From Anaerolineales bacterium UBA2232 (lineage in GTDB: Bacteria > Chloroflexota > Anaerolineae > UBA2200): a stretch of DNA of 25,661 bases. Positions 1,165-17,842 of the stretch are shown here, piece after piece (positions within the stretch are counted from its first letter, which is position 1; every line of letters starts with the position of its first letter). The position numbers and the translations under genes were made by a program. The notes beneath the pieces were generated by a model, which was not told the DNA's origin, did not search any database, and saw only the letters and a program-made list of their open reading frames with translations. The stretch lies in assembly GCA_002348045.1 (NCBI GenBank), contig DDYO01000226.1, positions 10,896 through 36,556 on the forward strand, in the 5' to 3' direction.

Positions 1165-1821
1165 TTGCCATACCGCTTGTTTGAAGCTCTCAGAGCGCTG
1201 TCCATATCCCATACATACCAGTTGATTACCATCGTGCTCGCTTGCGGCATTGCGTTGTTCCTCGGGGGGAACAGGGTTTGGCAGGCGGGTGCGTTTGCCG
1301 CGCTGCGATTGGCCGTGATGACTCTGACTGCACCCCAGGCCGGAATCGCCCTGACTACCATCAGCCTGATCTCCTGGTCTGCCATGCTCGTGGTGATGGT
1401 GTTCAGCGCTGCGCGTGGCTGGTCCAAAGCTCAGCGGACAGCGTCTCAGGGCGGAACGGTCACGGGCTCTCCTCCCCTCATCGCCAGGGCACTGGCTGCC
1501 GCGGTAGCGGTTGTGGTCACTCATGGCTTGGTACAGCGCATCCATCCCACAACGATTCCTTACAGTATCGTTTGGATAGTTGTCTGGCTTCTGGTTAGCG
1601 GGGTTCTCTTGTGGGCGCTCTGGCGTAGTCCCCTGCAGGCCGGCTGGCTGACGTTGATGCTCTCGGACGTTGGCCGTTTGCTCTATGCATTGTGGCAGCC
1701 CAATGTTTGGGCGTGGGGACTGTGGAGTGTCTGTGATGTGCTGGTAGCCTGGATCGCGGTTTACTTGAGCGAGGTTGGTCAGTCGGCGACCGCTAGCTGC
1801 GCTCCGGGAGACGCAGAGTGA
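1165..1821 (+). CDS. Hypothetical multi-pass membrane protein
   Basis: About 218 residues if translation starts at TTG 1165, which has AAGGGG seven bases upstream. The frame is open back to 1072, so a 249-residue form is possible, but a predicted promoter would then lie inside the gene. About six hydrophobic segments are visible, for example around SHTYQLITIVLACGIALFLG, IALTTISLISWSAMLVVMV, ALAAAVAVVVTHGLV and SIVWIVVWLLVSGVLLWALW. No motif gives a firm family. The stop overlaps the GTG start of the next gene by four bases (GTGA), so the two are probably translationally coupled and may form one membrane complex. Because the partner looks like an antiporter-type complex I subunit, this could be a small HyfE/NuoK-like partner; that is speculation from context. 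Confidence 0.6.
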   Translation: MPYRLFEALRALSISHTYQLITIVLACGIALFLGGNRVWQAGAFAALRLAVMTLTAPQAGIALTTISLISWSAMLVVMVFSAARGWSKAQRTASQGGTVTGSPPLIARALAAAVAVVVTHGLVQRIHPTTIPYSIVWIVVWLLVSGVLLWALWRSPLQAGWLTLMLSDVGRLLYALWQPNVWAWGLWSVCDVLVAWIAVYLSEVGQSATASCAPGDAE

Positions 1822-3179
1822 ATCCGCTTGTGTTGAGCGCGCTGCCTCTAGCAGCCTCTGGCGTCATGTGCATCTTGGGACGACGACGCTGGCCAGTCTT
1901 GTTAGTAGCCGCTGTAACCCTGACCCTTTGTGCTGCTATGATTTGGCGGTGGGTAGCGATGGAGGATCGGTCCACCCTCTTTGGTCTGGAATGGGTGCTG
2001 GATACGGCGACGCGCTCACTGCTCGTGAGGATCTATGCCGGAACCTTGGTTCTGTTCGCGTGCGCCCAGCTTAGGCAGAACGTTCCCGCGTTCAGCGCCG
2101 CGGCGCTAGCAAGTGTTGGCGTCCTCACTGCGGCCCTCCTGGCGCGGCCTCTGTGGCTGGCTTCGTTGCTGCTCTCCTGTGGTGTGGTGCTGACTGCCGG
2201 GGTCGCTCGCCCACAAAAGGCTTCGGCTGCGCGCGGCGCTTCTGGGCTCCTCCTATGGAGCTCGTTGCCGATCCCCTTTGTCCTCGCTCTCTTTGCACTC
2301 CTTGAACACCACGCACTCTATCCTGACGATGCCCAGGCGGTGAATCTGGCCGGGCTGCTGAGCATCGTTCCAATGGTGTTGTGGCTGAACCTTTTCCCTG
2401 TCCAGGCCACGGTGCGGGCGTGGGCAGCGGATGGTGTGCCTTTGGGTCCAGTGCTGGCCTGGGTGGTGAGGGACGCAGTGGTGCTGTTCTGGGCACTTGG
2501 CCTTTGGCAGCAGCATCCGGAACTGTGCACGCCGACAGCTCTGGATTTGCTGGGTTTGGTTGGGTTGTTGACTGCCGTCGCGAGCGGTATCCTGGCGGGC
2601 GTCAGGCGAAGCCCTGGGTCTCTTCTGGCTTGCGCCATGGCTTGCCAGTTGGGGACAGCCGTGTCGGGCGCAGTCGCTGGCTCAGTGAATGGTTGGGAGG
2701 GGGTTCTAGCACTGCTCGCAGGCCGGTGGATAGCGGCGTGGCTGGCTGTGGCTGCGTTGACCGTGCTGGATGATCGCTGCAGCCCAGCTGGAGATGGGCA
2801 GATCAGTCGAACAACGAATTGGCCCCAATGGGCGGCCGTTGCTGGCTACAGCATCGCCATTCTCTCGCTTGCTGGCGCACTGCCTGGACCGGGTTTCTGC
2901 GGCCGGCAGCAAGTCTATTTGGCTCTGGGTGAGGGTTTCATGGCACTGCGAGTGCCGTGGGCACTGGCTTCCTTGGGCCTCGTGGTGGGCCTAGCACGGC
3001 TTCTCCCGTCACTGCTGGCTATCAAATCGCACGGACAGGGGCAGGTACGTGTCCGTCCATCGCTTTTCCTGCTCTGTGCCCTGTTGCTGCTATCTGGGTA
3101 CGTGGCCCTGCGCCCACTGCAAATCCTGAGTTGGATCCCGGTGGCACTGCATCCGCTTCCTCTCGGCCTGGTCCGTTGA
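1818..3179 (+). CDS. Degenerate NuoN/Mrp antiporter-like membrane protein
   Basis: 453 residues with a dozen or more hydrophobic segments and GTG start 1818. Two stretches recall the proton-translocating antiporter family (Proton_antipo_M: NuoL/M/N, MrpA/D). One is near residues 185-225, where LWLNLFPVQATVRAW sits where family members usually have a Lys followed by PFH-W. The other is near residues 355-370, where LAGALPGPGFCGRQQVY resembles the usual LAGIPP-GF-GK motif. The functional Lys and His are not seen, so proton translocation may be lost. No other complex I or hydrogenase subunit is nearby apart from the coupled membrane protein upstream. Assignment rests on pattern resemblance only. 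Confidence 0.6.
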   Translation: MNPLVLSALPLAASGVMCILGRRRWPVLLVAAVTLTLCAAMIWRWVAMEDRSTLFGLEWVLDTATRSLLVRIYAGTLVLFACAQLRQNVPAFSAAALASVGVLTAALLARPLWLASLLLSCGVVLTAGVARPQKASAARGASGLLLWSSLPIPFVLALFALLEHHALYPDDAQAVNLAGLLSIVPMVLWLNLFPVQATVRAWAADGVPLGPVLAWVVRDAVVLFWALGLWQQHPELCTPTALDLLGLVGLLTAVASGILAGVRRSPGSLLACAMACQLGTAVSGAVAGSVNGWEGVLALLAGRWIAAWLAVAALTVLDDRCSPAGDGQISRTTNWPQWAAVAGYSIAILSLAGALPGPGFCGRQQVYLALGEGFMALRVPWALASLGLVVGLARLLPSLLAIKSHGQGQVRVRPSLFLLCALLLLSGYVALRPLQILSWIPVALHPLPLGLVR

Positions 3180-3290: not shown

Positions 3291-5480
3291 GTGTCAACTC
3301 ACAAAGATCGGGGCAGGAGAGCACCAGAGCCGGTGCAGGTTGACCTGAACCGTTCTGTGCAGCGCGACATCGCTGGCCTCATCCTGATGGTAGCGGGAGT
3401 TATGACCATCCTGACTGGATGGTCGGTTGTCGCCGGACCCCTGGGTGCTGGATGGGCCGGCCTCGTGCGGCGAGTATTCGGTTGGGGTCTCTACCCCGTA
3501 GCTGCCGCACTTGTCGTTCTGGGCTTAGTGGTGATCTGGGAACCCTTGGGCCAGCGCTTGGTCAGTTTGACCAGGCAGATCGTTGGCCTCGAGGTGGTCT
3601 TCCTGGCTCTGCTAGGGCTCACACACGCCCTGATCAACCCCGAGGTGGCCTTCCAAGTAGCTGAGGGTGGCAGTGGTGGAGGCTACATTGGCTGGGCAAT
3701 CAGCCATATCCTGGCTGCGGCCATTGGGCGTCCGCTGTCCATCATCCTCCTTGTCGTAGCGGCAGGTGCTGGGGCGGCGTTGCTCACTGGGTTGGACTGG
3801 CATCAGTTTCGCGATTGGATGTTCCGACTACGATCATGGCTCGAACGCCCGCAGCTGCCTTCTGAGCTGCCGCTTTCCCCTTCAGAACCCAAGGAAACGC
3901 TCGCCCCGGTTGGACGCGAAAGGAAAGGGCACCGGCGTACGGCCGCCGATCCAGACCGGCGTCCCGCGCCGGTCGAAACCCTTGCTCCGCGGCCGCGAAG
4001 GAAGGCGCGAGATCGGCGTTTGCCACCCCTGGACCTCCTGGAGGCTGAGGCTCAAGGTATCTACAGCGAAGCCGATGTGGAGTTTCGAAAGCAAGTGATT
4101 GAGGAGACCCTAGCGAGCTTTGGCGTGCCAGCCAGTGTGGTGGAGATACGCCGGGGTCCCACTGTAACGCAATTCGGGGTCGAGCCCGGTTTCCTGGAGT
4201 TCAGCTCCTCAGATGGTGACAAGCGGCTGCGCAAAGTCCGTGTCAGCAAAATCATGTCCTTGCAGGATGACCTTTCCTTGGCGCTGGCGGCGTCACCGTT
4301 GCGCATTGAAGCTCCCGTGCCCGGCCGGTCTGTGGTTGGCATCGAGGTGCCCAACATCAAGCCTTCCCTCGTGCGGCTACGAAGCGTTGTCGAATCTCCT
4401 AGCTTCTCGAGGATGGACTCCCGATTGCGGGTTGCGTTGGGAAAAGACGTGGCAGGGCAACCCATGGTTGCTGATCTGGCCCAGATGCCCCACGTGCTGA
4501 TCGCTGGAGCCACTGGTTCCGGAAAATCCGTGTGCATTAACGCCTTTGTCGCCTGTCTACTGCTGGAAAACACCCCTGATGACGTTCGAATGCTGATGAT
4601 TGACCCCAAGATGGTCGAGCTAACCATCTTCAACGGCATTCCCCACCTTCTTGCGCCTGTCATCACCAAAGTCGAAGAAGCTGTTCGCGCTCTCTTGTGG
4701 GTGACGAAACAGATGGACGAGCGTTTCCGCCTGTTTGCCCGTCGGGCGGTGCGTGACATCGAGCGATACAACAAGCTGGCGGATAACTCGGGTGATGAGC
4801 GACTGCCGCGCCTGGTGGTGCTGATTGACGAGCTGGCAGACCTGATGATGACCGCGCCCGACGAGATTGAGCGCTCCATCTGCCGAATCGCCCAGATGGC
4901 TCGGGCCACAGGGATTCATCTGGTCATCGCTACCCAACGGCCATCGGTAGACGTGGTCACCGGGCTGATCAAGGCCAACTTTCCGGCTCGGATAAGCTTT
5001 GCTGTGACGTCGCAGGTGGATTCGCGGGTGATTCTGGACACCATGGGCGCAGAGAAACTCTTGAGTCGCGGTGACATGCTGTATATGGCGCCGGACTCTA
5101 GCAAGCTCGTGCGCCTCCAGGGTTGCTTCGTGTCGGATGTGGAGGCCCAGCGCTTGGCAGATTTCTGGCGGGAGAAGGTTGACTGGATGGCGCCAGAATC
5201 AGAAAGTGGGGTGGTTCCGTGGCAGGGCATGGACGAGGAAAACGAAGGGTCCGATGACCTGCTTGATGAAGCCATTGCTCTGGCGCAGGGCCGACAGACC
5301 CTTTCGACGTCATTCATCCAACGCCGCCTGCGGGTTGGCTATCCTCGAGCCGCTCATCTCATGGATATCCTGGAGTCGCGCGGGATCGTGGGACCAGCTG
5401 AAAACGCCGGTCGGTCGCGAGAAGTTCTCCTCGGCGAGGAGGATGCTGGCGGCGCAAGTGCTGGGGGGATGGAGGGGTAG
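3291..5480 (+). CDS. ftsK: DNA translocase FtsK/SpoIIIE
   Basis: Membrane-anchored hexameric motor that pumps DNA through the closing division septum toward dif. With GTG 3291 (GGAAAGG 11 bases upstream) it has 729 residues; an in-frame TTG/ATG at 3246/3249 would add 15. About four membrane segments fill residues 25-160, followed by a short basic, Pro-rich linker, much shorter than that of E. coli FtsK. The alpha and beta motor domains follow, with Walker A GATGSGKS at about 406-413, Walker B VVLIDELADLMM near 510 and the conserved ATQRPSVDVVTGLIKANFP stretch. The C-terminal winged-helix gamma domain, which reads polar DNA motifs, is present (TSFIQRRLRVGYPRAAHLMD). The gene appears complete and has its own consensus promoter. 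Confidence 0.96.
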   Translation: MSTHKDRGRRAPEPVQVDLNRSVQRDIAGLILMVAGVMTILTGWSVVAGPLGAGWAGLVRRVFGWGLYPVAAALVVLGLVVIWEPLGQRLVSLTRQIVGLEVVFLALLGLTHALINPEVAFQVAEGGSGGGYIGWAISHILAAAIGRPLSIILLVVAAGAGAALLTGLDWHQFRDWMFRLRSWLERPQLPSELPLSPSEPKETLAPVGRERKGHRRTAADPDRRPAPVETLAPRPRRKARDRRLPPLDLLEAEAQGIYSEADVEFRKQVIEETLASFGVPASVVEIRRGPTVTQFGVEPGFLEFSSSDGDKRLRKVRVSKIMSLQDDLSLALAASPLRIEAPVPGRSVVGIEVPNIKPSLVRLRSVVESPSFSRMDSRLRVALGKDVAGQPMVADLAQMPHVLIAGATGSGKSVCINAFVACLLLENTPDDVRMLMIDPKMVELTIFNGIPHLLAPVITKVEEAVRALLWVTKQMDERFRLFARRAVRDIERYNKLADNSGDERLPRLVVLIDELADLMMTAPDEIERSICRIAQMARATGIHLVIATQRPSVDVVTGLIKANFPARISFAVTSQVDSRVILDTMGAEKLLSRGDMLYMAPDSSKLVRLQGCFVSDVEAQRLADFWREKVDWMAPESESGVVPWQGMDEENEGSDDLLDEAIALAQGRQTLSTSFIQRRLRVGYPRAAHLMDILESRGIVGPAENAGRSREVLLGEEDAGGASAGGMEG

Positions 5481-5531
5481 TTGCAGATCCGTGCCGGCTG
5501 TGAGAAGGTGCAACTGAGGAACGTCATCGAT

Positions 5532-5562
5532 TTGCCAAGATGAAACGGTTTTGTGTTATAAT
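5532..5562 (+). promoter_or_regulatory. Predicted promoter of the yebC-ruvC-ruvA operon
   Basis: TATAAT at 5557-5562 is perfect and is preceded by a TGT stretch. The best -35 is TTGCCA (5532-5537) with a long 19-nt spacer. A start near 5569 leaves about 40 nt before the yebC ATG. Confidence 0.5.
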
Positions 5563-5610
5563 GGGGAGCTAGCTCAGGAAGCTGTCGAAGGATTGGGAGG
5601 TGCATGAGGT

Positions 5611-6363
5611 ATGTCTGGTCATTCCCATTGGGCAACCATCAAGCGTCAAAAAGGTACCGCGGACGCCAAGAGAGGTCAGTTATTCACCAAGCTTGGTCGT
5701 GAGATCGAGATCGCTGCTCGTGAGGGCGGTGCTGATCTGACGTCTAATTTTCGTTTGCGCCTGTGTGTCGACAAGGCCAGACAGGCCGCCATGCCGAAAG
5801 AGAACATTGAGCGCGCCATCCTGCGCGGAACGGGCCAGCTCAAAGGCGAATCGATCGAGCAGGTGAGCTACGAAGGATACGGGCCACAAGGTACCGCAGT
5901 CATCGTTGAAGTCATGACCGATAACCGCAACCGAGCGGTCTCCGAGGTGCGGCGCGTCTTTTCTCGGCACGGTGGCAATCTGGGTGAGTCCGGTAGTGTC
6001 TCGTGGATGTTCGAGCGCAAAGGATACATAAGCATCACCCCTGAGAATGGCGATTCAGACGAATTGGCGCTGATGGCCATCGACGCTGGCGCCGACGATG
6101 TCAAAACAGCGGAGGATCTGGTAGAGGTCTATACCAAGGTCGAAGAACTGCAGCAGATCAAAGGTGCGCTGGAAGCGAGCAATATCACGTTTGATAGTGC
6201 TGAGCTGGCCTGGGTACCCAAGACCATGCTTCAATTGGATAACAGGGCTACTGTGCAGAACCTCAAGCTCATCGATGATCTGGAAGAGTTGGATGATGTC
6301 CAGCAGGTGTTTACCAACTTGGACATCACCGATGAGGCGCTGGCAGCCTACGAAAATGAGTAA
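5611..6363 (+). CDS. yebC: YebC/PmpR-family regulatory protein
   Basis: 250 residues, the usual family length. It opens with the hallmark MSGHSHWATIKRQKGTADAK and continues with LFTKLGREIEIAAREGG and the family pattern around NIERAI-RG-G. The family is described as a DNA-binding regulator, including of ruv genes in some bacteria, and more recently as a translation factor that helps ribosomes through proline-rich stretches. Start ATG 5611 has an excellent Shine-Dalgarno GGGAGGTG eight bases upstream. It heads an apparent operon with ruvC, 20 bases downstream, and ruvA. The yebC-ruvC-ruvA order is common in bacteria, which supports all three assignments. Confidence 0.96.
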   Translation: MSGHSHWATIKRQKGTADAKRGQLFTKLGREIEIAAREGGADLTSNFRLRLCVDKARQAAMPKENIERAILRGTGQLKGESIEQVSYEGYGPQGTAVIVEVMTDNRNRAVSEVRRVFSRHGGNLGESGSVSWMFERKGYISITPENGDSDELALMAIDAGADDVKTAEDLVEVYTKVEELQQIKGALEASNITFDSAELAWVPKTMLQLDNRATVQNLKLIDDLEELDDVQQVFTNLDITDEALAAYENE

Positions 6364-6383
6364 TAGGTGAATCACATCGCGGG

Positions 6384-6911
6384 ATGAGGCCTCCGTTTCT
6401 GGTCCTGGGTGTTGATCCTGGCACGGCCATCACGGGCTACGGAGTTGTACGGGTGGATCAAGCCGTGACGGTCGTTTCCTATGGCGCAATTCGAACTCCA
6501 TCCAACCTATCTCTGGCCGAGCGCCTGCAACTGATTCACGGCGAGTTGTCTGCAATCATCGAGCATTATCATCCCGCCGAAGCATCCGTAGAAGAGTTGT
6601 TCTTTGCTAGAAATGCACGGACCGCGCTGGCCGTGGGGCATGCTCGGGGAGTGATCTTATTCGCCCTCGCCCAGGCTGGTGTTGGCGTCTTCGAGTACAC
6701 CCCACTGCAGGTCAAACAGGCCATCACCGGCTACGGGCGCGCCACCAAGGAACAAATGCAGGAAATGGTGCGTCTCTTGCTTGGACTGGAGGTGGTTCCC
6801 CAGCCCGATGATGTGGCCGACGCTCTGGCTGTGGCAGTCTGTCATGCCCATACGTCACCCATGAGACTGCGTTTGGCCGATGCCGTCTCTGGAATAGGAG
6901 ACAGACGTTGA
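6384..6911 (+). CDS. ruvC: Crossover junction endodeoxyribonuclease RuvC
   Basis: Dimeric nuclease that resolves Holliday junctions with RuvAB in the cytoplasm. It has 175 residues, typical for the family. The acidic active site is visible: D11 in LGVDPGTAITGYG, E70 in SVEELFFARN, and D143/D146 in PDDVADALAVAVCHAH. The RuvC core motif YTPLQVKQAITGYGRATKEQM is intact. Start ATG 6384 lies 20 bases after yebC, without a strong independent Shine-Dalgarno site. Its stop overlaps the ruvA start. Confidence 0.96.
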   Translation: MRPPFLVLGVDPGTAITGYGVVRVDQAVTVVSYGAIRTPSNLSLAERLQLIHGELSAIIEHYHPAEASVEELFFARNARTALAVGHARGVILFALAQAGVGVFEYTPLQVKQAITGYGRATKEQMQEMVRLLLGLEVVPQPDDVADALAVAVCHAHTSPMRLRLADAVSGIGDRR

Positions 6912-8000: not shown

Positions 8001-8022
8001 AGCAGTGTCCTGTGGAACTGCT
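8001..8022 (+). terminator. Weak hairpin after the CvpA-family gene
   Basis: AGCAGT (8001-8006) pairs with ACTGCT (8017-8022), with an inner TCC/GGA extension and one bulged G. It begins one base after the stop codon. There is no U-tract, so intrinsic termination would be weak. The remaining 148 bases to the next gene show no clear promoter. Confidence 0.25.
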
Positions 8023-8170
8023 GGCCAAGCCGAGCGCGGGCGGGGCACAGGCGACGTCAGGCGGTAACTCGGGCCGATCTCCTAGAAGCAGCTGTTCTTG
8101 GAGTGCCTGTCTGGCACGAATGACTGCGCTTACAGTTCGGACCGAATCTCACCAATCCCGGAGCGATGCC

Positions 8171-9052
8171 TTGAGCAAGCAATATGGAAGTCAGAGCATG
8201 GTCGCGCCCTTGCGCAGGGTGCTGGTCAAGCGCCCGGACGCCGCTTTCGCCGTCCAGGATCCAGATCGGTGGCACTATGCGGGGCGCCCAGACCTTGTCG
8301 TCGCTCAGCAGGAACATGGTGCATTGGTGTCACTACTCACCCAGTCCGGAGCCGAGGTCATCTACCATGATGAGTTCCAGCCTGAACGGGCCGACGCCAT
8401 TTTTGTCCACGATCCTGCCCTGGTTACCGATGAAGGTGCCATCATCCTGAAGATGGGCAAGGCGTTGCGGGAGGGCGAAGAAGAGGCGTTGGCTCAGTGC
8501 TTGGGGGCACTGAGCATTCCGGTGTACTATCGCCTCCACGGCGAGGCCCGCGCCGAAGGTGGGGATCTGCTTTGGGTTGACCATGACACGCTGGCGGTAG
8601 GCCTCGGCTTTCGCACCAACCGGGAAGGGCTGCGCCAGTTGAGCGAGGCCTTGAGCGGACTGGGCGCCCGCGTGCTTCCTGTACCGCTGGTTTACCACCG
8701 AGGTCCGGAGGCGTGCCTGCATCTCATGTCCTTCATCAGCATCGTGGACGAGCGGTTGGCCGTGGTCTACCTCCCGCTGATGCCCGTGCCGTTCTGGGAG
8801 GCACTACTGGAAAAAGGATTTCGCCTGGTAGAGGTACCTGATGAAGAGTTCGACAGCATGGGCTGTAACGTGCTGGCCACCGCCCCGGGACGCTGTGTGA
8901 TGCTGGAAGGAAACCCTATTACCCGTGATCGCCTGACGGCAGCCGGATGCCGGGTAGAGACTTTTCGGGGACGTGAGGTGTCGCTGAAAGCTGAGGGCGG
9001 TCCGACGTGCCTCACGAGACCGATCTGGCGGTCCGGGGCAGAGCCGGCGTAA
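8171..9052 (+). CDS. Dimethylarginine dimethylaminohydrolase-like amidinohydrolase
   Basis: Cytoplasmic enzyme of the arginine deiminase/amidinotransferase superfamily, probably hydrolysing a guanidino group in methylarginine or a related compound. From TTG 8171 it has 293 residues. The preceding GGAG (8160-8163) and the N-terminus YGSQSMVAPLRRVLVKRP, which I recall as the usual family opening, support this start; the frame is open to 8012. Catalytic features are an EGGD motif at about 129-132, His184 in ACLHLMSF and the nucleophile candidate Cys232 in DSMGCNVLATAPG, followed by GNPITRDRL. This matches the Cys/His/acid layout of DDAH. No arginine-pathway gene lies nearby. Substrate cannot be fixed from sequence: DDAH, arginine deiminase or another amidinohydrolase remain possible. 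Confidence 0.85.
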   Translation: MSKQYGSQSMVAPLRRVLVKRPDAAFAVQDPDRWHYAGRPDLVVAQQEHGALVSLLTQSGAEVIYHDEFQPERADAIFVHDPALVTDEGAIILKMGKALREGEEEALAQCLGALSIPVYYRLHGEARAEGGDLLWVDHDTLAVGLGFRTNREGLRQLSEALSGLGARVLPVPLVYHRGPEACLHLMSFISIVDERLAVVYLPLMPVPFWEALLEKGFRLVEVPDEEFDSMGCNVLATAPGRCVMLEGNPITRDRLTAAGCRVETFRGREVSLKAEGGPTCLTRPIWRSGAEPA

Positions 9053-9113: not shown

Positions 9114-9719
9114 ATGGAGATTGTGTACTATTTTGCTTCCACGCTGATCGGCTATCTGGTGGGCTCTTTTCCCACAGGCTACCTGTTGGCTCGGATCAAG
9201 GGTGTGGACCCAAGGCAGGCGGGCAGTGGGCGTACAGGGGGAACCAACATCTTGCGCACGGCAGGTAAGGCCCCCGCGCTGCTGACGGTGGTCGGGGACC
9301 TCCTAAAGGGAGCCCTCGCCGTCTGGATTGCCCGGTCCTTGGTGGGTACGGATGCCGCGGCTGTTCTGGCCGGCCTGGCGGCGGTGCTGGGTCACAATCG
9401 GTCCATCTTCCTTGGCTTCCGCGGCGGGGCTGGCTCCATGACGAACGTCGGAGTTGTGCTGGCCCTCGCTCCCCAGGTGGTGCCCTTTGTAGCTGTAGTG
9501 GCGATCGCTGTGGCGCTAATCTGGCGCACGGCATCTCTGGCTTCCATCGCGGCGGTGGTAGCGACCCTGGTGGGGATAGTCGCCTCCGTACTGCTGTCCT
9601 GGTCGCCGGTGGTGTATCTGGTCTATGGTTTCGTGGTCTGCGTCATGATCCTGTTTGAGCTTAGGCCGAACATTCAGCGGCTGCGTTCCGGATCCGATCG
9701 CCCTGTAGCCACCTACTAG
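9114..9719 (+). CDS. plsY: PlsY-like glycerol-3-phosphate acyltransferase
   Basis: Integral membrane enzyme of the PlsY family, which transfers an acyl group from acyl-phosphate to glycerol-3-phosphate in phospholipid synthesis. It has 201 residues from ATG 9114, with GGAGGA 12 bases upstream; an in-frame GTG at 9069 is less likely. The fold pattern is clear: GSFPTGYLLAR in helix 1, then a Gly-rich loop, GDLLKGALAVWIARSL, GHNRSIFLGFRGGAGS and a C-terminal LRPNIQRLRSG. The key loops differ from canonical PlsY: SGRTGGTN replaces SGNIGATN, and RGGAGSMT replaces KGGKGVAT, losing a Lys. It may therefore be a specialised paralog. Its TAG overlaps the convergent glnQ TAG. Confidence 0.85.
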   Translation: MEIVYYFASTLIGYLVGSFPTGYLLARIKGVDPRQAGSGRTGGTNILRTAGKAPALLTVVGDLLKGALAVWIARSLVGTDAAAVLAGLAAVLGHNRSIFLGFRGGAGSMTNVGVVLALAPQVVPFVAVVAIAVALIWRTASLASIAAVVATLVGIVASVLLSWSPVVYLVYGFVVCVMILFELRPNIQRLRSGSDRPVATY

Positions 9720-10453
9720 TGGAGGATATTCGCTAGGAACTGCCGGGTGCGCTCCTCTTTACATTCGGTGAGGGCACAGGTAGGCGACAACTCCTCGACA
9801 ATGCGACCATCGCACATAAAGATGACTCGCGTGGCAGCGGCTTTCACAAAGCCCATTTCGTGAGAAACCACTACCATGGTCATGCCCTCCTTGGCCAAGT
9901 CCATCATGACGTCAAGGACCTCTTTGATCATCTCGGGATCCAGGGCGGAAGTGGGCTCGTCGAATAGCATGATCCGTGGCTGCATGGCCAAGGCACGAGC
10001 GATGGCCACGCGTTGCTGCTGGCCGCCGGATAGTTGTGAGGGATAGGCGTCCGCCTTTTCGGGAATTCCGACCTTTGCCAGGAGGTCACGGGCAACCCTC
10101 TCCGCTTCGCGGTGATCCTTTTTCCGCACCACCTTCTGCGCTAGCATGATGTTCTCCAGGGCCGTCAGGTGGGGGAACAGGTTAAAGAGCTGAAAGACCA
10201 TGCCTACCTCGGCACGCACCTTATCAATGTTCTCCGCACCGGCCAGGGGAATACCGTCTACCACGATGCGGCCGCTATCTGTAGCCTCCAGGCGGTTGAT
10301 GCAACGCAGCAGGGTGGATTTACCTGCTCCACTGGGTCCGATAATGACCACTACCTCCTTACGCTTCACCGTTAGGCTGACATCATTGATGGCCAAGAAG
10401 TGACCAAAGCGTTTGGAAACGTGCTCAATCTCAATGATGTTATCGGCCAACAC
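9716..10453 (-). CDS. glnQ: Polar amino-acid-type ABC transporter ATPase (GlnQ-like)
   Basis: Cytoplasmic ATPase of a polar amino-acid importer, 245 residues, complete. Walker [10 protein letters not shown] is at about 39-47, the Q-loop in [16 protein letters not shown] near 87-102, signature LSGGQQQR at 141-148, Walker [13 protein letters not shown] at 161-172 and the H-loop His198 in [25 protein letters not shown] and [13 protein letters not shown] are typical of the GlnQ/HisP/ArtP group rather than OppD/DppF. The GTG start has AAAGGA about seven bases upstream and overlaps the permease gene by 14 bases. It is the only ATPase gene of this five-gene operon, which also carries two peptide-type permeases. 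Confidence 0.93.
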
Positions 10454-11291
10454 TGGCTTTCCTTTCTATGTAGGCGGCGACTCGGGAAAAGAACAGCGTG
10501 AGAACCAGGTACAGAAGCGCGACCATCATCCATGTTTCCAGCGCCAGAAACGTGGAGGCCATGAACTCCCGACCCCGTCGAGTCATGTCGGCTACGGCGA
10601 CTACTGACACCAGCGAAGAATCCTTCAGCAGCGCTACGAACTCATTCCCCACCGGAGGCAGGATCATCCGGAATGCCTGGGGTAGGATCACGTAACGCAT
10701 GGACTGAACATAGTTCATCCCCAGCGAGCGCGCTGCCTCCATCTGTCCCTTGGGAATGGACTCAATGCCGGCCCGAAAGATCTCGGACATATAGGCCCCG
10801 TAGCAGATAGTCAAGCCGAACACGGCAGCCACAAATGGGTTTAGCCTTACGGTGGTAAGAGCTAGAGCGAGCGACGGCAAGATGCCCTGTATTCGGAGCC
10901 CAATATCTCGGAGCACGATCGGCGAGGCATAGTAGATGAATAGGAGCTGCACCAGCAAGGGGATGCCGCGAACGATCTCAACGTAGAGCAGGGAAACGCC
11001 CGCGATGATGGGATTCTTGGAAACCCGGCCCAGCCCACCAACAAGGCCCGCCAGCATGATCAGAACAAACGATACGACCGTCACTCCCATGGTCACCACA
11101 ATCCCATCGTTCATGAAGCGAACAATGCGCCAGTAAGGATCGGGTGAGCGAACGATCAACAGGACTACCAACACAACGACCGCGCCGAAGATGATCCAGG
11201 CGCGATCGATATCCGCTCCGAATGGCCGGCTGGGAGGGTCACCGACTGGTATCAGCGCAGGAGGGTCACAAACTGGGGGAACAGTGGTCAT
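10440..11291 (-). CDS. glnP: Polar amino-acid-type ABC transporter permease (GlnP-like)
   Basis: Inner-membrane permease of the HisM/GlnP family, 283 residues from ATG 11291. The EAA loop that contacts the ATPase is clear (GQMEAARSLGMNYVQSMRYV), followed by LPQAFRMILPPVGNEFVALLKDSSL, a stretch typical of this family. An N-terminal extension of about 60 residues, including a Pro-rich cytoplasmic start and an extra hydrophobic segment (WIIFGAVVVLVVLLIV), precedes the core. The gene lies 22 bases after dppC and overlaps glnQ, so both are probably co-transcribed with the peptide-type genes upstream. Confidence 0.92.
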   Translation of the reverse strand: MTTVPPVCDPPALIPVGDPPSRPFGADIDRAWIIFGAVVVLVVLLIVRSPDPYWRIVRFMNDGIVVTMGVTVVSFVLIMLAGLVGGLGRVSKNPIIAGVSLLYVEIVRGIPLLVQLLFIYYASPIVLRDIGLRIQGILPSLALALTTVRLNPFVAAVFGLTICYGAYMSEIFRAGIESIPKGQMEAARSLGMNYVQSMRYVILPQAFRMILPPVGNEFVALLKDSSLVSVVAVADMTRRGREFMASTFLALETWMMVALLYLVLTLFFSRVAAYIERKASVGR

Positions 11292-11313: not shown

Positions 11314-12207
11314 TCACATGCGAAGGCGCGGGTCGAGCGCATCGCGGAGACCATCTCCTAGCAGATTAAATCCCAGGACGCTCAGCATAATGGCAATACC
11401 AGGGAACAGGACGATGTGGGGCGCCGTGAATACCGATCCGCGGCCTTCACCTAGCATTGAACCCCACTCTGCAGTAGGAGGCTGCGCGCCGAGGCCAAGA
11501 AAGCTCAGGCCAGCAGCGTCGAGAATGGCTGTGGCGATGCCCAGCGTGCCGGCTACCAGCACGGGAGTCACGCAGTTCGGCAGTATCTCCCGCCACAGGG
11601 TTCGGAGCCGAGGCACGCCGACAGCGCGGGCTGCCATCACATAGTCCTGCTCTCTGGCCGCCAAGACGCTGGCACGCATAATGCGCGCATACACGGGTAT
11701 GGAGACAAATGCGATGGCGTACAGCATGTTCATCAGGCCGGGCCCCAAAATGGATACCACGGCGATGGCCAGCAGCAGTCCGGGGAACGCCAGTAGGATG
11801 TCCATTGCCCGCATGATCAGCTCATCGGCCCAGCCACCCAGGAATCCCGCCACAGCGCCTAATACGGAGCCGACGACGATGGCCAGGGTAACAGATAGGA
11901 CGCCGATCTGTAGGGATACGCGCGCCCCATAGATGACTCTGCTGAGGAGGTCTCTTCCCAACTCGTCCAATCCCAGCCAATGCTGGGCAGAGGGTGGCTG
12001 ACGACGGAGCAGGATAGCCTGGTCGGTGGGATCGTAGGGTGCCAACCAGGGGGCGAGCACGGCTGCCAGCGCCATTACGGCAATGGTGGCCAAGCCCACC
12101 AGGGCGAGCTTGTTGCGCAAGAGCCTATTCCAGGCATCTCGATACAGGCCTGTAGGTGCTCTTGCGAGCCTTCGATCATCAGCTGTTGTAGTAGGGCTAT
12201 CGCTCAT
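11314..12207 (-). CDS. dppC: Peptide/nickel-type ABC transporter permease (DppC-like)
   Basis: Inner-membrane permease of the OppC/DppC family, 297 residues from ATG 12207. After a cytoplasmic N-terminus containing YRDAWNRLLRNKLALVGL it has the family hallmark LAPYDPTDQ, followed by HWLGLDELGRDLLSRVIYGA. The EAA loop is YVMAARAVGVPRLRTLWREI, and the C-terminal LSFLGLGAQPPTAEWGSML is canonical. The gene starts three bases after the dppB stop. No DppD or DppF ATPase gene is present; the next genes are GlnP/GlnQ-type. Confidence 0.95.
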   Translation of the reverse strand: MSDSPTTTADDRRLARAPTGLYRDAWNRLLRNKLALVGLATIAVMALAAVLAPWLAPYDPTDQAILLRRQPPSAQHWLGLDELGRDLLSRVIYGARVSLQIGVLSVTLAIVVGSVLGAVAGFLGGWADELIMRAMDILLAFPGLLLAIAVVSILGPGLMNMLYAIAFVSIPVYARIMRASVLAAREQDYVMAARAVGVPRLRTLWREILPNCVTPVLVAGTLGIATAILDAAGLSFLGLGAQPPTAEWGSMLGEGRGSVFTAPHIVLFPGIAIMLSVLGFNLLGDGLRDALDPRLRM

Positions 12208-12210
12208 GTC

Positions 12211-13284
12211 TTATTGGTAGCGGATCCGCGGGTCGAGGAAGGCATAGGAAATGTCGACGATCAGGTTCAGAAGAACGAAAATGAGGGCAATGACCAACAC
12301 GGCCCCCTGCACCGTCGGATAGTCTCGGGCGAGAATACGCTCAATGACCAGGCGGCCCATGCCAGGCCATGAAAAGATAGTTTCTGTGAGGATGGCGCCG
12401 GCAAGCAATCCACCGAACTGCAGTCCGATCACGGTGATCAGCGGGAGCAGGGCGTTTCTCATGGCATGGCGTATTAGAACAATGCGTTCCTGAAGGCCCT
12501 TGGCCCGCGCCGTGCGGACATAGTCCTCGCCCAAGACCTCCAGCAACGTGGAACGGGTGATGCGGGCAATAATGGACATCGGAATCGTACCCAGAGCAAT
12601 GGCGGGCAAGATCAAGTGCTTGATCGAATCAATGAGGGCTTCGGGATTCGCCGTGACAAAGCTGTTCAAGACGTAGAAATTGGATAGAAAGCTGAGCAAG
12701 GCCGAGGCGGCATTTCCGGCGGGACCACTTGAATTGAAACCATACGTGGCAGCGATGGTCTTCATCTCGACGCCAACCGAGAGTCTCGCAGACGGGGGTA
12801 GCCAGCCGAGTTTGAACCCAAAGACGTAACTTAGTAGCAGTCCCAGCCAGAAAACTGGCATTGACACTCCGACTAACGCCCCAATCATCGTGAGCAGGTC
12901 AAAGCGCGAGTTATGCCGATAGGCCGCGATGGTACCGGCAGAGATGCCCACCGCGCAGGCGATCAGCATTGCCCCCAGGCTCAGCTCGATGGTCGCCGGT
13001 AGGCGCTGAGCGATCTCCACGGTGACCCACTCATTGCGAGAGATGGAGCGCCCCCAGTCGCCACGGACGAGGCGCTGGAGGTAGCGCGCATACTGCACAG
13101 GAATGGAATCATCAAGGCCCATGGACTCTCGACAGCGGGCCAGCGCTTCCTCGGTAGCGCGCTCTCCCAGCATGACGCGGCACGGATCGCCGGGGATCAG
13201 GCGCAACATGGAGAACGTCACGATCGAGATGCCCAGCAACACCGGCAATAGGAGCAGCAAGCGCTGGGTGATGTAGCGGACCAC
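12211..13284 (-). CDS. dppB: Peptide/nickel-type ABC transporter permease (DppB-like)
   Basis: Inner-membrane permease of the OppB/DppB family. GTG 13284 (357 residues, VRYITQRLLLLLPVLLGIS) is preferred over the in-frame ATG 13305 because GGAGG sits just upstream of the GTG and ATG 13305 is buried in a 17-bp hairpin. Family marks: IVTFSMLRLIPGDPC near the N-terminus, GDWGRSISRNEWV, the EAA loop YVRTARAKGLQERIVLIRHA and the C-terminal ILARDYPTVQGAVLVIALIF. An insertion of about 45 residues between membrane segments (around residues 178-220) is longer than in E. coli DppB. It is the first permease gene after the fused binding protein. Confidence 0.94.
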   Translation of the reverse strand: MVRYITQRLLLLLPVLLGISIVTFSMLRLIPGDPCRVMLGERATEEALARCRESMGLDDSIPVQYARYLQRLVRGDWGRSISRNEWVTVEIAQRLPATIELSLGAMLIACAVGISAGTIAAYRHNSRFDLLTMIGALVGVSMPVFWLGLLLSYVFGFKLGWLPPSARLSVGVEMKTIAATYGFNSSGPAGNAASALLSFLSNFYVLNSFVTANPEALIDSIKHLILPAIALGTIPMSIIARITRSTLLEVLGEDYVRTARAKGLQERIVLIRHAMRNALLPLITVIGLQFGGLLAGAILTETIFSWPGMGRLVIERILARDYPTVQGAVLVIALIFVLLNLIVDISYAFLDPRIRYQ

Positions 13285-13303
13285 GCGATGGCCTCCGTAA
13301 GAC

Positions 13304-13341
13304 ATCTACCGTGCAGGGGCTATGGCCCCTGCACGGTAGAT
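13304..13341 (-). promoter_or_regulatory. 17-bp perfect stem-loop between the binding-protein gene and dppB, with a nearby -10
   Basis: ATCTACCGTGCAGGGGC (13304-13320) and GCCCCTGCACGGTAGAT (13325-13341) are perfect inverted repeats around a 4-base loop. There is no U-tract, so this is more likely an mRNA-stabilising or processing element that lets the binding protein be made in excess than a terminator. A perfect TATAAT on the minus strand (13355-13350) would place a start near 13343, so a transcript from it would begin almost exactly at the stem. No convincing -35 accompanies it. Confidence 0.7.
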
Positions 13342-13365
13342 AGTCAGTCATTATACCCCTTCGGC

Positions 13366-15726
13366 TTATTCGCCCTTGAAGCCGCCGAAGAAGTAGCCCC
13401 AGTAGAAAAAGTCGCCGGTGTGGCCCTTGTGGTACGGGTTCTCCGTATCCCACCACCGCTCGAGGTTAAAGATGGCTGCATCAGCATTAAAGTCGGTGCC
13501 GTCGTGGAACTTGACCCCCTTGCGCAGGTAGAAGGTCCACTCGGTGAGGTCCGATGAGTTCTCCCACCTTTCGGCAAGGCCTGGCACGACGTCCGCAGTG
13601 CCAGCCTTAAAGTTGACCAGTGGCTCCATGATCTGCAAAGCGACCATGAAGGACTCACCATCGGTCTCATCAGCCACGTCCAGACCAACGGTGTCGCCAC
13701 TACGGGCAAATACCACCGTATCCTTCCCCTGGATGCTGACCGTGTTGAGGAACTCGGTGCTGAGCGGGCTGGGCAGGAAACCCTGAACGGTCTTCTTCAG
13801 CGCGATGGCCGAAGAGTTGTGGACCACTGGAACGGCCGGGATGAGATCGTGGATCAGCTTGTTTGCCTCGTCGTAGATCTTCTGGCGCGCCGCCAGATCA
13901 GCTTCCGATGCTGCCTTGGTGAGGGTGCTGACGATCTCCGGGAACGTAGCGCCAAAGCTCTGATCTGCCCCACTGCCAAAGAAAACGTCCAGGAAGTTGG
14001 TGGCATCGGGATAGTCGGCCATCCAGCCCAGCAGGAAGAGATCACCCTCTCCCGCCGCGACCTTGTCCAGGTACACGCCCCAGTCATAGGTGACGAACTC
14101 GGCGGTGATGCCTACATTCTTCAGATCGGCCTGAATGGCCTGCCCGACCTTGTTGGGATCTGGATAGTAGCCACGGGACACGGGCATGACCCACAACTTG
14201 GTGGTGAAGCCATTGGGATAGCCAGCCTGGGCCAGTAGTTCTTTGGCCTTGACGGGATCATAGGGCCAATCCGCCTGACCCGCGCTGTAGCCAAAGATAC
14301 CCGGCGGGACGAATCCCTTGGCAACAGAAGCCGTCGGTGGGTAGAGGGCCTTGACAATGTCCGCCTTGTTGATAGCCATGGCGATGGCCTGTCGAACTTC
14401 GACCTTGTCAAATGGCGCCTTGTCACGGTTGATGCCCAGGTAGCCGACGTTGAACGGCGGCCGGAAAGCAAGCTGCAGGTTCGGATCCGCCTGGGCAGCC
14501 GCGATGTCGTCCGGAGCCACGTTATCGATGATGTCCACTGCGCCGGCCTGAAGTTCCAACAGGCGAGCGGGGGCTTCCTTGATGACCCGGTACACGGCCT
14601 GTTTGACCTGAGGCTTGGCGCCCCAGTATCCGTCGAACGGTACCAGGGTGACGGTGGAGTCAGGCACCCATTCTTGCAGCTTGAAGGGTCCCGTGCCAGA
14701 GGGGTTCTTGAAAAAGTCACCCCCACCTTCATACTTCTTGATCTGGGTTGGGCTCTGGATGGAAAAGGCACCAAAGGCCAGCTTGTACAGGAAGGCCACG
14801 TCCGGCCGGTTCAAGGTGAGCTTGATGGTATAGTCGTCGACCTTGGTGATGGCCTGGACCAGGCTCTTGGCCTCGGCCTCTTCGGGGGCCACCGCAATCC
14901 ATTTGTTCTCTAGATCAGCGATGACACCCTTATCCGTCAGGCTCTTGAGGGCGGCATTGATGGCTGCCAGCAGTTCAGGCATCCCCTTTTTCACCGCGAT
15001 GCCATAGTACTCCTCGGTGAATGGCATGCCGACGCTCTTGATCCTGCCAGAGTACTTGGCGACATAGGCAGCGACCAGGGGATTGTCAGCTACGACGGCA
15101 TCAACCTGACCATTGATCAGGTCCAGGAATGCTTGGGAGATCTCGTCATAGTTCTTGAGCGTGGCGCCGCTGATGGCATCCACTTCCATGGCTCCGGTGG
15201 TACCGAGCTGGGCGCCGACGGTCTTGCCAACCAGGTCCGCAGGCTTGCTGATGACCTCATTGTTGATGGCAACCGCGATGAGTTGTCCGGCGTTGTAGTA
15301 AGGATCGGAGAAATCAAACTGCTTCCGGCGCTCCTCAGTGATGGTCATGGCCGAGGCAGCCATGTCATACTGGCCCGTCGCCAAGCCTGCCAAGAGGGTG
15401 TCCCAGGGGGCGTTGACAAACGTGACTTCGAAGCCAGCCTCGGCGGCAACGGCGTTGACCAAGTCAATGTCAAACCCCACAAACTCCTTGGTCGCCTCGT
15501 CCACCGACTCAAAAGGCGGCCAAGTTGCGTCCACGGCTGAGGTAACCTTCATGACGGGTTTGGGCGTCGGGGGTACCGCGGTTGGTGGTACTGCCGTGGG
15601 TGGCACTGCGGTGGGCGGCGCCGGGGTGGGCGGTACAGGCGTTGGGGTCGCAGCTGGGGCGCACCCTGCCAATACCAGACTGAAGACCATAAAGAGACTA
15701 ATGAGACTCAACCACTTACCTTTCAC
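13366..15726 (-). CDS. Fused binding lipoprotein: SBP_bac_3 domain plus circularly permuted SBP_bac_5 domain
   Basis: 786-residue surface lipoprotein with GTG start and AAGGAGG about seven bases upstream. Signal peptide 1-21 ends in lipobox LAGC (Cys22); a Pro/Thr linker spans 23-57. Residues 58-278 are a full polar amino-acid-binding domain (VGFDIDLVNAVAAEAG, WDTLLAGLATGQYDMAASAM). Residues 288-666 match DppA from its KVDDNTV region to its C-terminus (KVDDYTIKLTL, NPSGTGPFKLQEW, LNTVSIQ). Residues 667-786 then match the DppA N-terminus (DTVVFARSGD, DVVPGLAERWE, LRKGVKFHDGT, NPYHK). The peptide-binding domain is thus circularly permuted, and the protein ends exactly where the permuted piece should rejoin. 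The frame is continuous. It heads the operon with DppB-, DppC-, GlnP- and GlnQ-like genes. Whether both sites bind ligand is unknown. Confidence 0.9.
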   Translation of the reverse strand: MKGKWLSLISLFMVFSLVLAGCAPAATPTPVPPTPAPPTAVPPTAVPPTAVPPTPKPVMKVTSAVDATWPPFESVDEATKEFVGFDIDLVNAVAAEAGFEVTFVNAPWDTLLAGLATGQYDMAASAMTITEERRKQFDFSDPYYNAGQLIAVAINNEVISKPADLVGKTVGAQLGTTGAMEVDAISGATLKNYDEISQAFLDLINGQVDAVVADNPLVAAYVAKYSGRIKSVGMPFTEEYYGIAVKKGMPELLAAINAALKSLTDKGVIADLENKWIAVAPEEAEAKSLVQAITKVDDYTIKLTLNRPDVAFLYKLAFGAFSIQSPTQIKKYEGGGDFFKNPSGTGPFKLQEWVPDSTVTLVPFDGYWGAKPQVKQAVYRVIKEAPARLLELQAGAVDIIDNVAPDDIAAAQADPNLQLAFRPPFNVGYLGINRDKAPFDKVEVRQAIAMAINKADIVKALYPPTASVAKGFVPPGIFGYSAGQADWPYDPVKAKELLAQAGYPNGFTTKLWVMPVSRGYYPDPNKVGQAIQADLKNVGITAEFVTYDWGVYLDKVAAGEGDLFLLGWMADYPDATNFLDVFFGSGADQSFGATFPEIVSTLTKAASEADLAARQKIYDEANKLIHDLIPAVPVVHNSSAIALKKTVQGFLPSPLSTEFLNTVSIQGKDTVVFARSGDTVGLDVADETDGESFMVALQIMEPLVNFKAGTADVVPGLAERWENSSDLTEWTFYLRKGVKFHDGTDFNADAAIFNLERWWDTENPYHKGHTGDFFYWGYFFGGFKGE
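15571..15645 (-). repeat. Five 15-bp tandem units encoding the Pro/Thr linker
   Basis: Consecutive 15-bp units (for example 15586-15600 and 15601-15615) encode PPTAV/PPTPA-type pentapeptides of the linker behind the lipobox. It is a coding minisatellite likely to vary in copy number. It is not CRISPR-like, because there are no spacers. Confidence 0.8.
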
Positions 15727-16143: not shown

Positions 16144-16171
16144 ATTGTACCATAAATGGACACTGTGTCAA
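16144..16171 (-). promoter_or_regulatory. Strong sigma70 promoter upstream of the RNA candidate
   Basis: On the minus strand, perfect TTGACA (16171-16166) and TACAAT (16149-16144) are separated by 16 nt. The expected start is near 16137. It lies between the terminator of the secreted-protein gene and the fused binding-protein operon, and is the only convincing promoter for this interval. Confidence 0.7.
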
Positions 16172-16286: not shown

Positions 16287-17696
16287 TTACTTGTTGATGC
16301 CGTTGTAGGTGGTGAACGAGTCGCCATAGTTCATGCCGAACCGAGGATCGACATCGGCACGGAAGGACATGTTGGCGATACCGACGATGTTGCGGTTACA
16401 GGTGACCACAGCCGACCCGTTAAAGTCCGAGGTCATGCTGCCGACGCTGGGAAGGAACTGGCTCCAGCTCTGGCCTGCACCGATTGGGATGCCGGCAACG
16501 ACCACGTCGGCCCGGCCTGCCATGGAGTAGACAACGGTCATCGTACCATCTGAGGCGCTGACGTTCTGCATCTGGACGCCACTGCAGTAGCCATAATACT
16601 TGGACGTCACCTGCGGGAACAGCACGCTGGTGGTAGCCTGTCCATCGAGGAAGCCGTTGTAGGTCACACCGCGACCCTCAGTGCGGTTGTCCTCGTTGAT
16701 GGTGGCCACGATGGGCTGCCCGGAGGACGTGATGGTGGCGGACCCAGAACCGGCCACGCCCGCAAGCTCAGGAACCTGCGAAGGTTCGCCCATGTAGGGA
16801 CCCCATGCCTGGCCGGGGCCTATGGATGGCGATACCTGGGCATAGGTCATGCCACCAAAGCTGTACTGGACCGTGATGGTCGTTGGGCTGCCGCCGACGT
16901 TCTGAACCTTCAGGCCGCTCTGGTAGCCGTAGTAGTCCTTGACGATACGGGGAGCGTAGAGCTTGGTCACGCCTCCACCAAAGCCGTTGTAGCTGTGGAA
17001 CTGCGCCGTCGTGTTGTCCGCACCAGTGTTGTAGAAATTGGTGATGACGGCAACATTCTTGTTGCTGACGATCTTGGCTGAGCCGCTAAAGTTGCCGGGC
17101 AGGCCGCCCTCAACCTCCTGACGGAACACATAGGTGCTGTAGGGATGGAGCGACTGGGTGTTGGTGGCTATCGTGGCGCCGGTGGAGTCAATGTAGTTCA
17201 CCGTCACCGAGGCAGTCTCGCTCGCTGTATTCTGCACCGCAACGTACGAGTTCCAGCCATAGAAGCCCTTCATCAACTGGGTGGCGTACTGGGTCATGGT
17301 TGGCTCGAGCACACCGCTGGCCGTGCCGACGCGGTTGGGGTTGCTCGGGGTGGACCCGGAGCCAGACGGAACCTGGGTGTTGATGATCGCCGCCACCGGC
17401 TTGTCGGACTCTACCACTACAGAGCCGATGAAGCCATCAGGAAGCGCAGCGATACTGGGGGTGAACCAGGTCTTGGACTTGCCGGGATCGATGGTGGAAG
17501 TCAATGTGTGCGCCAATACACCGGCATTGGCGGTGCCCTCCGCCCAGTAGAACTTGATCGTGACGTTCGCGAGGTTGGCCGCATCCTGGTTGAGGACGGT
17601 AAAGCCCGATACCCAGGTGCCAGTCTGTGCGCTGGCGATGGCCGAAAATGCCATGATCAGAACAGCCGCCACCAGCAATACTCTTACTAGTTTCAT
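16287..17696 (-). CDS. Secreted four-repeat beta-rich surface protein
   Basis: 469 residues from ATG 17696 (AGGAGAGG upstream; an in-frame TTG lies one codon earlier). A classical signal peptide ends in ASA (about residue 23). The mature part is four imperfect repeats of about 105-115 residues (about 25-141, 143-251, 253-364 and 366-469). Units open with a GFYGWNSYVAVQN or KDYYGYQSGLKVQNV type motif; the middle has beta-strand patterns with a PG-turn and a hydrophobic V-Y stretch; most end with GSA-I-S, a VA-IN strand and a YNGF motif. Only the last unit has Cys (371 and 433), well placed for one disulfide. No anchor, S-layer or catalytic motif is seen. It is the last gene of the minus-strand surface block and has a strong terminator, which suggests high expression. 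Function unknown. Confidence 0.8.
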   Translation of the reverse strand: MKLVRVLLVAAVLIMAFSAIASAQTGTWVSGFTVLNQDAANLANVTIKFYWAEGTANAGVLAHTLTSTIDPGKSKTWFTPSIAALPDGFIGSVVVESDKPVAAIINTQVPSGSGSTPSNPNRVGTASGVLEPTMTQYATQLMKGFYGWNSYVAVQNTASETASVTVNYIDSTGATIATNTQSLHPYSTYVFRQEVEGGLPGNFSGSAKIVSNKNVAVITNFYNTGADNTTAQFHSYNGFGGGVTKLYAPRIVKDYYGYQSGLKVQNVGGSPTTITVQYSFGGMTYAQVSPSIGPGQAWGPYMGEPSQVPELAGVAGSGSATITSSGQPIVATINEDNRTEGRGVTYNGFLDGQATTSVLFPQVTSKYYGYCSGVQMQNVSASDGTMTVVYSMAGRADVVVAGIPIGAGQSWSQFLPSVGSMTSDFNGSAVVTCNRNIVGIANMSFRADVDPRFGMNYGDSFTTYNGINK

Positions 17697-17842
17697 CAAT
17701 TCCTCTCCTTTCGTTGCCTAATCCTTCTGAGGACTTTCCGCCAAGAACAGGCTTCGAGGGTCACCACCCAACAGAACTTGCAGGCAACCGCACCCGCCAT
17801 TTCTTTGCAGCTATGGTCAGCATACCACACGCCATTGCACAT
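17696..17842 (-). CDS. Cys-rich 48-residue small ORF coupled to the secreted protein
   Basis: Starts at ATG 17842 behind AAAGGGG, about eight bases upstream, and ends in TGA that shares its A with the ATG of the secreted repeat protein (TGATG), a classic coupling overlap. The peptide has five Cys (2, 12, 21, 24, 32), including a CKFC pair, a hydrophobic middle and a strongly basic tail (RKVLRRIRQRKERN). The start codon sits in a small GCCAT/ATGGC hairpin. It could be a real small protein, a translated leader controlling the downstream gene, or chance. It does not resemble a family I know. Confidence 0.4.
   Translation of the reverse strand: MCNGVWYADHSCKEMAGAVACKFCWVVTLEACSWRKVLRRIRQRKERN

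Follow-up and report, generated by a model that had tools for sequence, protein, structure and literature searches.

An SBP_bac_3 domain joined to a circularly permuted DppA-like domain in a Chloroflexota binding protein, with once- and twice-permuted relatives

Substrate-binding proteins (SBPs) of the SBP_bac_3 and SBP_bac_5 classes usually dock on different permease families. Here we describe a gene in which domains of both classes are joined in a single frame, located at positions 13366..15726 of a 25,661-nucleotide stretch of DNA from Anaerolineales bacterium UBA2232 (contig DDYO01000226.1, positions 10,896 to 36,556; the whole of this stretch is referred to as the window). The closest described protein of the SBP_bac_5 class (PF00496) is Escherichia coli DppA, for which the available part of the source reports that R383 and D436 bind the dipeptide and that the scoop loop of DppB, with E41 and R42, contacts both (PMC12136057). 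Compared to DppA, the window protein carries the two parts of the fold, here termed front and rear according to their position in the ordinary chain, in the order rear then front, is a predicted lipoprotein and is fused behind an SBP_bac_3 domain. The window also resembles GlnH-GlnP-GlnQ systems in that it encodes an SBP_bac_3 domain together with a permease of the GlnP type and an ATPase of the GlnQ type; however, in contrast to these systems and to the tandem GlnPQ importers, the SBP_bac_3 domain is joined to a permuted binding domain and not to the permease, which forms a separate frame (10440-11291), and dppB and dppC lie between the SBP_bac_3 gene and glnP.

Among tethered substrate-binding proteins, a natural circular permutant has been described before, the glucose-binding protein Tp0684 (TpMglB-2), assigned to 'Cluster Bc', for which the authors suggest that the topology may be related to membrane anchoring (PMC4990184). 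That protein probably differs from the one described here in its type I, cluster B sugar-binding fold, and the available part of the article describes neither a second permutation nor a fusion to another binding protein (PMC4990184). In the open-access literature, covered in part through the best-ranked matches, we came across no description of an SBP_bac_5 protein circularly permuted in nature; while a permuted binding protein is already known in another fold class, permutation of SBP_bac_5 appears to be new within this literature.

Chain order and predicted fold of the window protein

The fusion gene and its parts are as follows.

13366..15726, minus strand: fusion open reading frame (ORF), 786 amino acids (aa), SBP_bac_3 plus circularly permuted SBP_bac_5 (DppA-like)
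15661..15726, minus strand: predicted signal peptide, residues 1-22, ending in LAGC, from the sequence and helix 4-17 in the model
15556..15660, minus strand: Pro/Thr-rich linker, residues 23-57, predicted to be disordered (block pLDDT 39-60; pLDDT, predicted local distance difference test)
14887..15555, minus strand: SBP_bac_3 amino-acid-binding-type domain, residues 58-280, with R133 and D214 aligned to E. coli GlnH R97 and D179
13729..14868, minus strand: rear part of the DppA fold, residues 287-666, with contact residues R518 and D571 (corresponding to DppA R383 and D436)
13369..13728, minus strand: front part of the DppA fold, residues 667-786, standing after the rear part

The frame starts with a GTG codon, terminates at 13366-13368 and, just as the original prediction (which gave no strand) had read it, is uninterrupted over 786 aa. 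The LAGC end of the signal peptide is a motif which we take to be lipobox-like, and the product is hence presumably a lipoprotein; a loose lipobox pattern occurs in 207 of the 292 permuted proteins that are longer than 500 aa and start with M, V or L. In Pfam comparisons, SBP_bac_3 (PF00497) matched residues 62-277 (E 5.6e-41; 139.8 bits, cut-off 26.4), and SBP_bac_5 was matched in two stretches with 342.8 bits (curated cut-off 32.4), the best of which places residues 287-588 on profile positions 62-366 (E 3.2e-102). A comparison with the Protein Data Bank gave the same order: with the best solved DppA chain, residues 288-665 align to positions 150-534 of the DppA precursor (262 bits), and residues 642-776 align, separately significant, to DppA 4-143 (72 bits). 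The ordinary front-then-rear order of SBP_bac_5 is therefore not present, as the rear part (288-665) precedes the front part ending at 776. Since the protein reached 341.5 with the DppA equivalog model NF043070, whose cut-off is 1005, we refer to it as DppA-like rather than DppA.

At the internal junction the old ends of the fold are joined directly, NTVSIQ being followed by GKDTVVFARSGD (the join reads NTVSIQ/GKDTVVF), and the chain ends in YFFGGFKGE immediately before the stop. Relatives without the permutation run unbroken through the site of the cut (GFKGD/SIVTNIEKVDD in P0121; FEGMGL/PELISEVKKVDD in E. coli DppA), so that no piece has evidently been lost from, or doubled in, the window protein. 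Its homologous segments stand in the cyclically shifted order that characterizes a circular permutant, and the same order is found in hundreds of relatives. The comparisons with Pfam and solved structures thus bear out the predicted succession of SBP_bac_3, DppA rear part, DppA front part and stop, and the existence of a DppA-like domain with circularly permuted chain order, which the original prediction had taken to be genuine, is confirmed at the level of the sequence.

The AlphaFold2 model of the fusion protein has a pLDDT of 89.0 over its full length. In the predicted structures, the blocks at the new junction have values of 95 and 96, and those of the last 120 residues 90-98, except for 87 at the very end. 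The predicted structures thus place these last residues confidently, in agreement with the suggestion that they pack with the rest of the domain, as judged from confidence scores and not from a measurement. For a stand-alone permuted relative the predicted template modelling score (pTM) was 0.84, which exceeds the expectation for the rear part alone and thereby supports the placement of the front part. The structural matches listed by Foldseek and VIA-align are of the DppA and glutamine-binding types, and both domains are predicted to fold as clamshells.

Relatives, a second permutation and its possible origin

The first protein search gave 1176 matches, of which the 120 listed were compared together with the window protein (121 sequences). 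Among the matches listed, 56 of the 121 have the order SBP_bac_3-rear-front (two of these being the window itself) and 61 the order rear-front without SBP_bac_3, four of the latter carrying Peripla_BP_6 instead; two further sequences consist of two SBP_bac_3 domains without SBP_bac_5, and two combine SBP_bac_3 with an ordinary front-rear domain. The 61 permuted sequences without SBP_bac_3 led us to reject the idea that the permutation is tied to this fusion alone. A protein with two different clamshells, one of them permuted, had been regarded as potentially new in the original prediction; the fusion is real, but it is not a one-off, as the permuted domain often stands alone, and its SBP_bac_3 domain, although present as proposed, is one of several kinds of fusion onto the permuted domain. 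Relatives with the same order and 73-81% identity come from different contigs and sources, by which chance and a local assembly error are excluded.

In a larger set, comprising the listed matches of three protein searches plus L021, 306 sequences were scored for order: 283 were once permuted, 18 twice permuted and 2 ordinary, and the remainder were two rear-front-rear-front tandems and one front-rear-front-rear tandem; being drawn by permuted queries, this set carries no information on prevalence. P0079 and P0118 gave no SBP_bac_5 call in this scoring. Prevalence was estimated from a sample of 400 genomes of the phylum of L001 (Chloroflexota by title), with up to three candidates scored per genome. 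A match at E 1e-70 or better occurred in 76 of them. In 53 genomes, among them the centre genome and two further known carriers, a single match spanned rear and front, which indicates permutation since the ordinary order would not give such a match; 23 further genomes had a match to the rear only. In the phylum of L006 (Acidimicrobiia by title) a spanning match was found in 4 of 296 genomes, that of L006 included, and a rear-only match in 31 more. A Bacteroidetes host for L015 (genome G009) was rejected, as the phylum sample drawn for L015 shares its members with that of L001; the Bacteroidetes title is probably wrong. As a side observation, the small genome G362 contains three permuted-type matches on contigs C68 and C79, two of them adjacent.

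The contact residues of both domains are largely conserved among these relatives. DppA R383 and D436 map onto R518 and D571, and all of the 169 permuted sequences compared retain both. The counterparts of R133 and D214 of the SBP_bac_3 domain are GlnH residues which we take to be contacts of the alpha-amino-acid ligand; among 93 permuted fusions with SBP_bac_3, the arginine is kept in 92 and the aspartate in 85. For these and the following counts, the database copy of the window protein (P0002) was dropped from the ligand-residue, junction, cysteine, SBP_bac_3-residue and 306-sequence order sets, the repeat loci L081, L082 and L084-L090 from the ligand-residue, junction and cysteine sets, L081, L082 and L085 from the SBP_bac_3 analysis, and identical sequences from the ligand-residue count. 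L021 was counted among the permuted sequences of the ligand-residue and cysteine sets by its larger rear segment only, where its pre-start cysteine is misread.

Beyond what the original prediction had covered, both a second permutation and tandem duplicates exist among the relatives. The protein of L021 (1164-2930, 588 aa), encoded before dppB, dppC and two ATPase genes, has the order rear-2, rear-3, front, rear-1, and between front and rear-1 it contains a linker with a cysteine (KYEAPNCDYGG) that resembles the N-terminal extension of once-permuted relatives. Because this first-generation-like linker with its cysteine lies inside the chain, L021 most likely derives from a permuted duplicate. 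A dedicated search yielded 17 more proteins of this order (P0190-P0206), and the linker with a cysteine stands between front and rear-1 in all 18. In a 92-row tree, six twice-permuted rows lie deep among the once-permuted ones, with P0201 apart from the other five, so that a single origin of the second permutation is not assured. In the binding-domain tree, from which L021 was left out as too short and permuted rows at least 72% and ordinary rows at least 95% identical to a kept row were dropped, the permuted rows together with the ordinary L124 and P0120 form one clade, with a support of 99.6 in the Shimodaira-Hasegawa-like approximate likelihood-ratio test (SH-aLRT).

Duplication followed by loss of the ends is the model route to circular permutation. 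In P0122 and in P0123, a single chain comprises two permuted units arranged head to tail (rear-front-rear-front), and P0133 carries two ordinary units in the same arrangement (front-rear-front-rear), the first of which is far less query-like than the second; by their sequences, these three would be the intermediates expected for permutation by duplication. As in circular permutation by duplication (PMC3320104), the family contains tandem duplicates as well as permuted descendants; in addition to the model, there are here two successive permutations, the second of which keeps the linker of the first inside the chain. We propose that a head-to-tail duplication of a binding-protein gene (front-rear-front-rear) lost its outer ends, giving rise to the first permutation, and that the same process, starting later in other lineages from a rear-front-rear-front duplicate, produced the second. 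The first step would have shifted the N-terminal lipid tether, together with its linker, away from where the fold originally began and onto an inner loop.

A cysteine before the new start and a second one after the second strand of the first hairpin are both present in 69 of 169 permuted sequences, while 19 have the pre-start cysteine only, 81 neither and none the hairpin cysteine only; these rows share ancestry, and the window protein is without both cysteines. The hairpin cysteine is absent from all 31 ordinary sequences, one of which has a cysteine at the other place. With a looser pattern, the 283 once-permuted sequences divide into 150 with both cysteines, 28 and 1 with a single one, 35 with neither and 69 that are unscorable. 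The simplest reading is that a disulfide probably pins the new N-terminus in relatives such as P0113, L003 and L005.

Binding domains at the new N-terminus

Across the relatives, at least five kinds of binding domain occur at the new N-terminus. Besides SBP_bac_3, the permuted domain is preceded by Peripla_BP_4 (P0149), Bmp (P0170 and P0182), Phosphonate-bd (P0160) and, once or twice, Peripla_BP_6 (P0100, by precomputed Pfam annotation, and P0146). Predicted single chains of three binding modules also occur: P0023 and P0173 consist of Peripla_BP_6, SBP_bac_3 and permuted SBP_bac_5, P0146 of two Peripla_BP_6 and permuted SBP_bac_5, and P0118 of two SBP_bac_3 and Bmp. The new N-terminus would have repeatedly captured other binding domains. 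A single capture of SBP_bac_3 was not supported, as the label of permuted proteins with SBP_bac_3 changes at least eight times in the binding-domain tree and at least five times in the SBP_bac_3 tree, gains in these numbers not being separable from losses; the trees used for these counts were quick ones with SH-aLRT support only, and in the SBP_bac_3 tree two rows labelled as free, L022 (which ends at the contig end) and L025 (670 aa), may be fusions. At L026, which is part of no count, an SBP_bac_3 domain followed by a front part (5220-6434) ends at the contig end and is probably a fusion of ordinary order.

Whether all this amounts to a family of serial permutations in Chloroflexota is, in our judgement, an evenly balanced matter. 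Such a family would have ordinary, once-permuted, twice-permuted and tandem forms in coexistence, a tether moved to a new face of the clamshell with each permutation, an N-terminus acting as a socket for at least five kinds of domain, and lipoproteins with two or three clamshells feeding different permeases. With three chain orders of one fold and tandem duplicates side by side, the duplication route becomes testable with real sequences. As the tether and the attached domains move with each permutation, the family also offers a natural experiment on the position of the tether in docking on the permease. If, as the multi-clamshell fusions suggest, several importers can be served by a single tethered protein, transporter repertoires in these bacteria would have to be counted differently.

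Neighbouring genes and proposed function

The fusion gene is surrounded by the following features.

12211..13305, minus strand: DppB-type permease with the scoop residues E and R retained (GER)
11314..12207, minus strand: DppC-type permease, profile match
10440..11291, minus strand: GlnP/HisM-type amino-acid ATP-binding cassette (ABC) permease, profile match
9716..10453, minus strand: GlnQ-type ABC ATPase, profile match
13304..13341, minus strand: inverted repeat of 17 bp without mismatch, loop of 4 nt, lying between the stop of the SBP gene and dppB
16144..16171, minus strand: sigma-70-like promoter match, 11/12, second hexamer preceded by TG, located upstream of the SBP start by about 420 bp

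The row in the window thus reads fusion gene, dppB, dppC, glnP and glnQ, with the same downstream row in L001 and L002, an arrangement that may have come about by insertion of a dpp block that separated a glnH-like gene from its partners glnP and glnQ. The true start of DppB is likely the GTG at 13284, which lies behind a GGAGG. When 18 DppB proteins (from the window and 17 loci) were aligned to that of E. coli, the scoop glutamate was present in all 18, followed by R in nine, K in eight and H in one. In the locus scan, the best 80 of at least 538 confirmed loci were kept, 22 of which hold a whole permuted gene; dppB is the next gene downstream in 17 of these 22, and at L003 and L004 the DNA ends within about 450 bases of the permuted gene. 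At L006, L014, L019 and L021, two further ABC ATPase genes come after dppC; they show 31-39% identity to GlnQ in the matched part and, by place and length, are taken as putative DppD/F. Apart from the permutation, the genes at these loci resemble a regular dpp operon, with the stand-alone permuted protein as its apparent binding protein.

As genes of the DppBC and GlnPQ types follow the fusion gene, its product likely serves two permeases. We consider it probable that the window protein is a two-clamshell lipoprotein that would pass its ligands to the two permeases encoded just downstream, amino acids to that of the GlnPQ type and dipeptides to that of the DppBC type, and that its permutation came about via duplication. 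The energy for dipeptide import would come from a DppDF pair whose genes lie at another site or, with lower probability, from GlnQ. Two oligo_HPY ATPases are encoded side by side elsewhere in the L001 genome, adjoining a DppA-like gene matched by the rear part only, and this pair could serve both the system of that gene and the fusion.

Several observations weigh against this reading or parts of it. Profile scans detected no DppD/F-type ATPase among the genes beside the fusion in the window, and L005, L008 and L020 carry a permuted gene with no dppB in the DNA examined. The arginine and the aspartate of the dipeptide site also occur in 19 and 27, respectively, of 28 unfused ordinary relatives; being common in the wider family, they mark the type of ligand and not specificity. 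D214 is replaced in 8 of the 93 permuted fusions with SBP_bac_3. With regard to the fold, Foldseek and VIA-align match only the rear part (285-668) to DppA, so that the packing of front on rear rests on pLDDT and pTM. With regard to origin, the best tree places the ordinary L124 and P0120 within the clade of permuted rows and so does not demonstrate that the first permutation arose only once, although a clade of permuted rows only is not rejected (p 0.42 in the approximately unbiased test). Finally, SBP_bac_3 precedes an ordinary front-rear domain in P0120, P0121 and L028, and capture therefore does not need permutation.

Permease types for both kinds of domain stand in one row in the window, L001 and L002, and proteins of the SBP_bac_3 and SBP_bac_5 classes normally pair with permeases of different families, both of which make it unlikely that the two clamshells serve one permease set, widening the range of a single translocator and leaving DppBC or GlnPQ idle or shared. 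Such sharing would be in line with the lack of a DppD/F pair beside the fusion and with GlnPQ, which the available part of the source describes as an importer with two tandem binding domains that feed one translocator (PMC8025302). Still less probable is a fusion acting mainly as a receptor or sensor, in which SBP_bac_3 would sense the amino-acid status while the permuted domain would provide a platform for docking rather than a part of a transporter. Peripla_BP_6, Peripla_BP_4, Bmp and Phosphonate-bd domains at the same place in relatives, and the three loci without dppB, fit this possibility; however, dppB directly follows the permuted gene at most of the kept loci that hold it, the dipeptide-contact residues are invariant in the permuted rows, and no signalling kinase or chemoreceptor family was matched among the 25 window ORFs scanned with Pfam (out of 67 listed, many overlapping). 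An assembly chimera, which the original prediction itself had named as an outcome that would refute it, or a decayed gene can be dismissed for practical purposes, even though the window protein is known from one contig (P0002, with one member sequence), since the same order occurs in hundreds of proteins of several sources, the close relative P0003 being 74, 83 and 82% identical in the three parts, and the frame is open with its ligand residues kept.

Between the fusion gene and dppB, the region 13300-13370 (71 nt), which includes the inverted repeat, folds with -42.5 kcal/mol (z -7.9); the hairpin is a possible 3' stabiliser or attenuator that would set the ratio of SBP to permease. Sigma-70-like matches numbered three in the region scanned, with 2.8 expected by chance. 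A riboswitch in the 420-nt leader was considered and rejected, as no Rfam match at gathering score was found anywhere in the window. Three ORFs of the window, 1072-1821, 1818-3179 and 16287-17699 (249, 453 and 470 aa), gave no Pfam match at E 0.001. A gene of the arginine-deiminase family (ADI, DDAH) lies on the plus strand at 8012-9052, convergent to the uptake genes and at a distance of two genes from where their row ends; it might provide a link to amino-acid catabolism.

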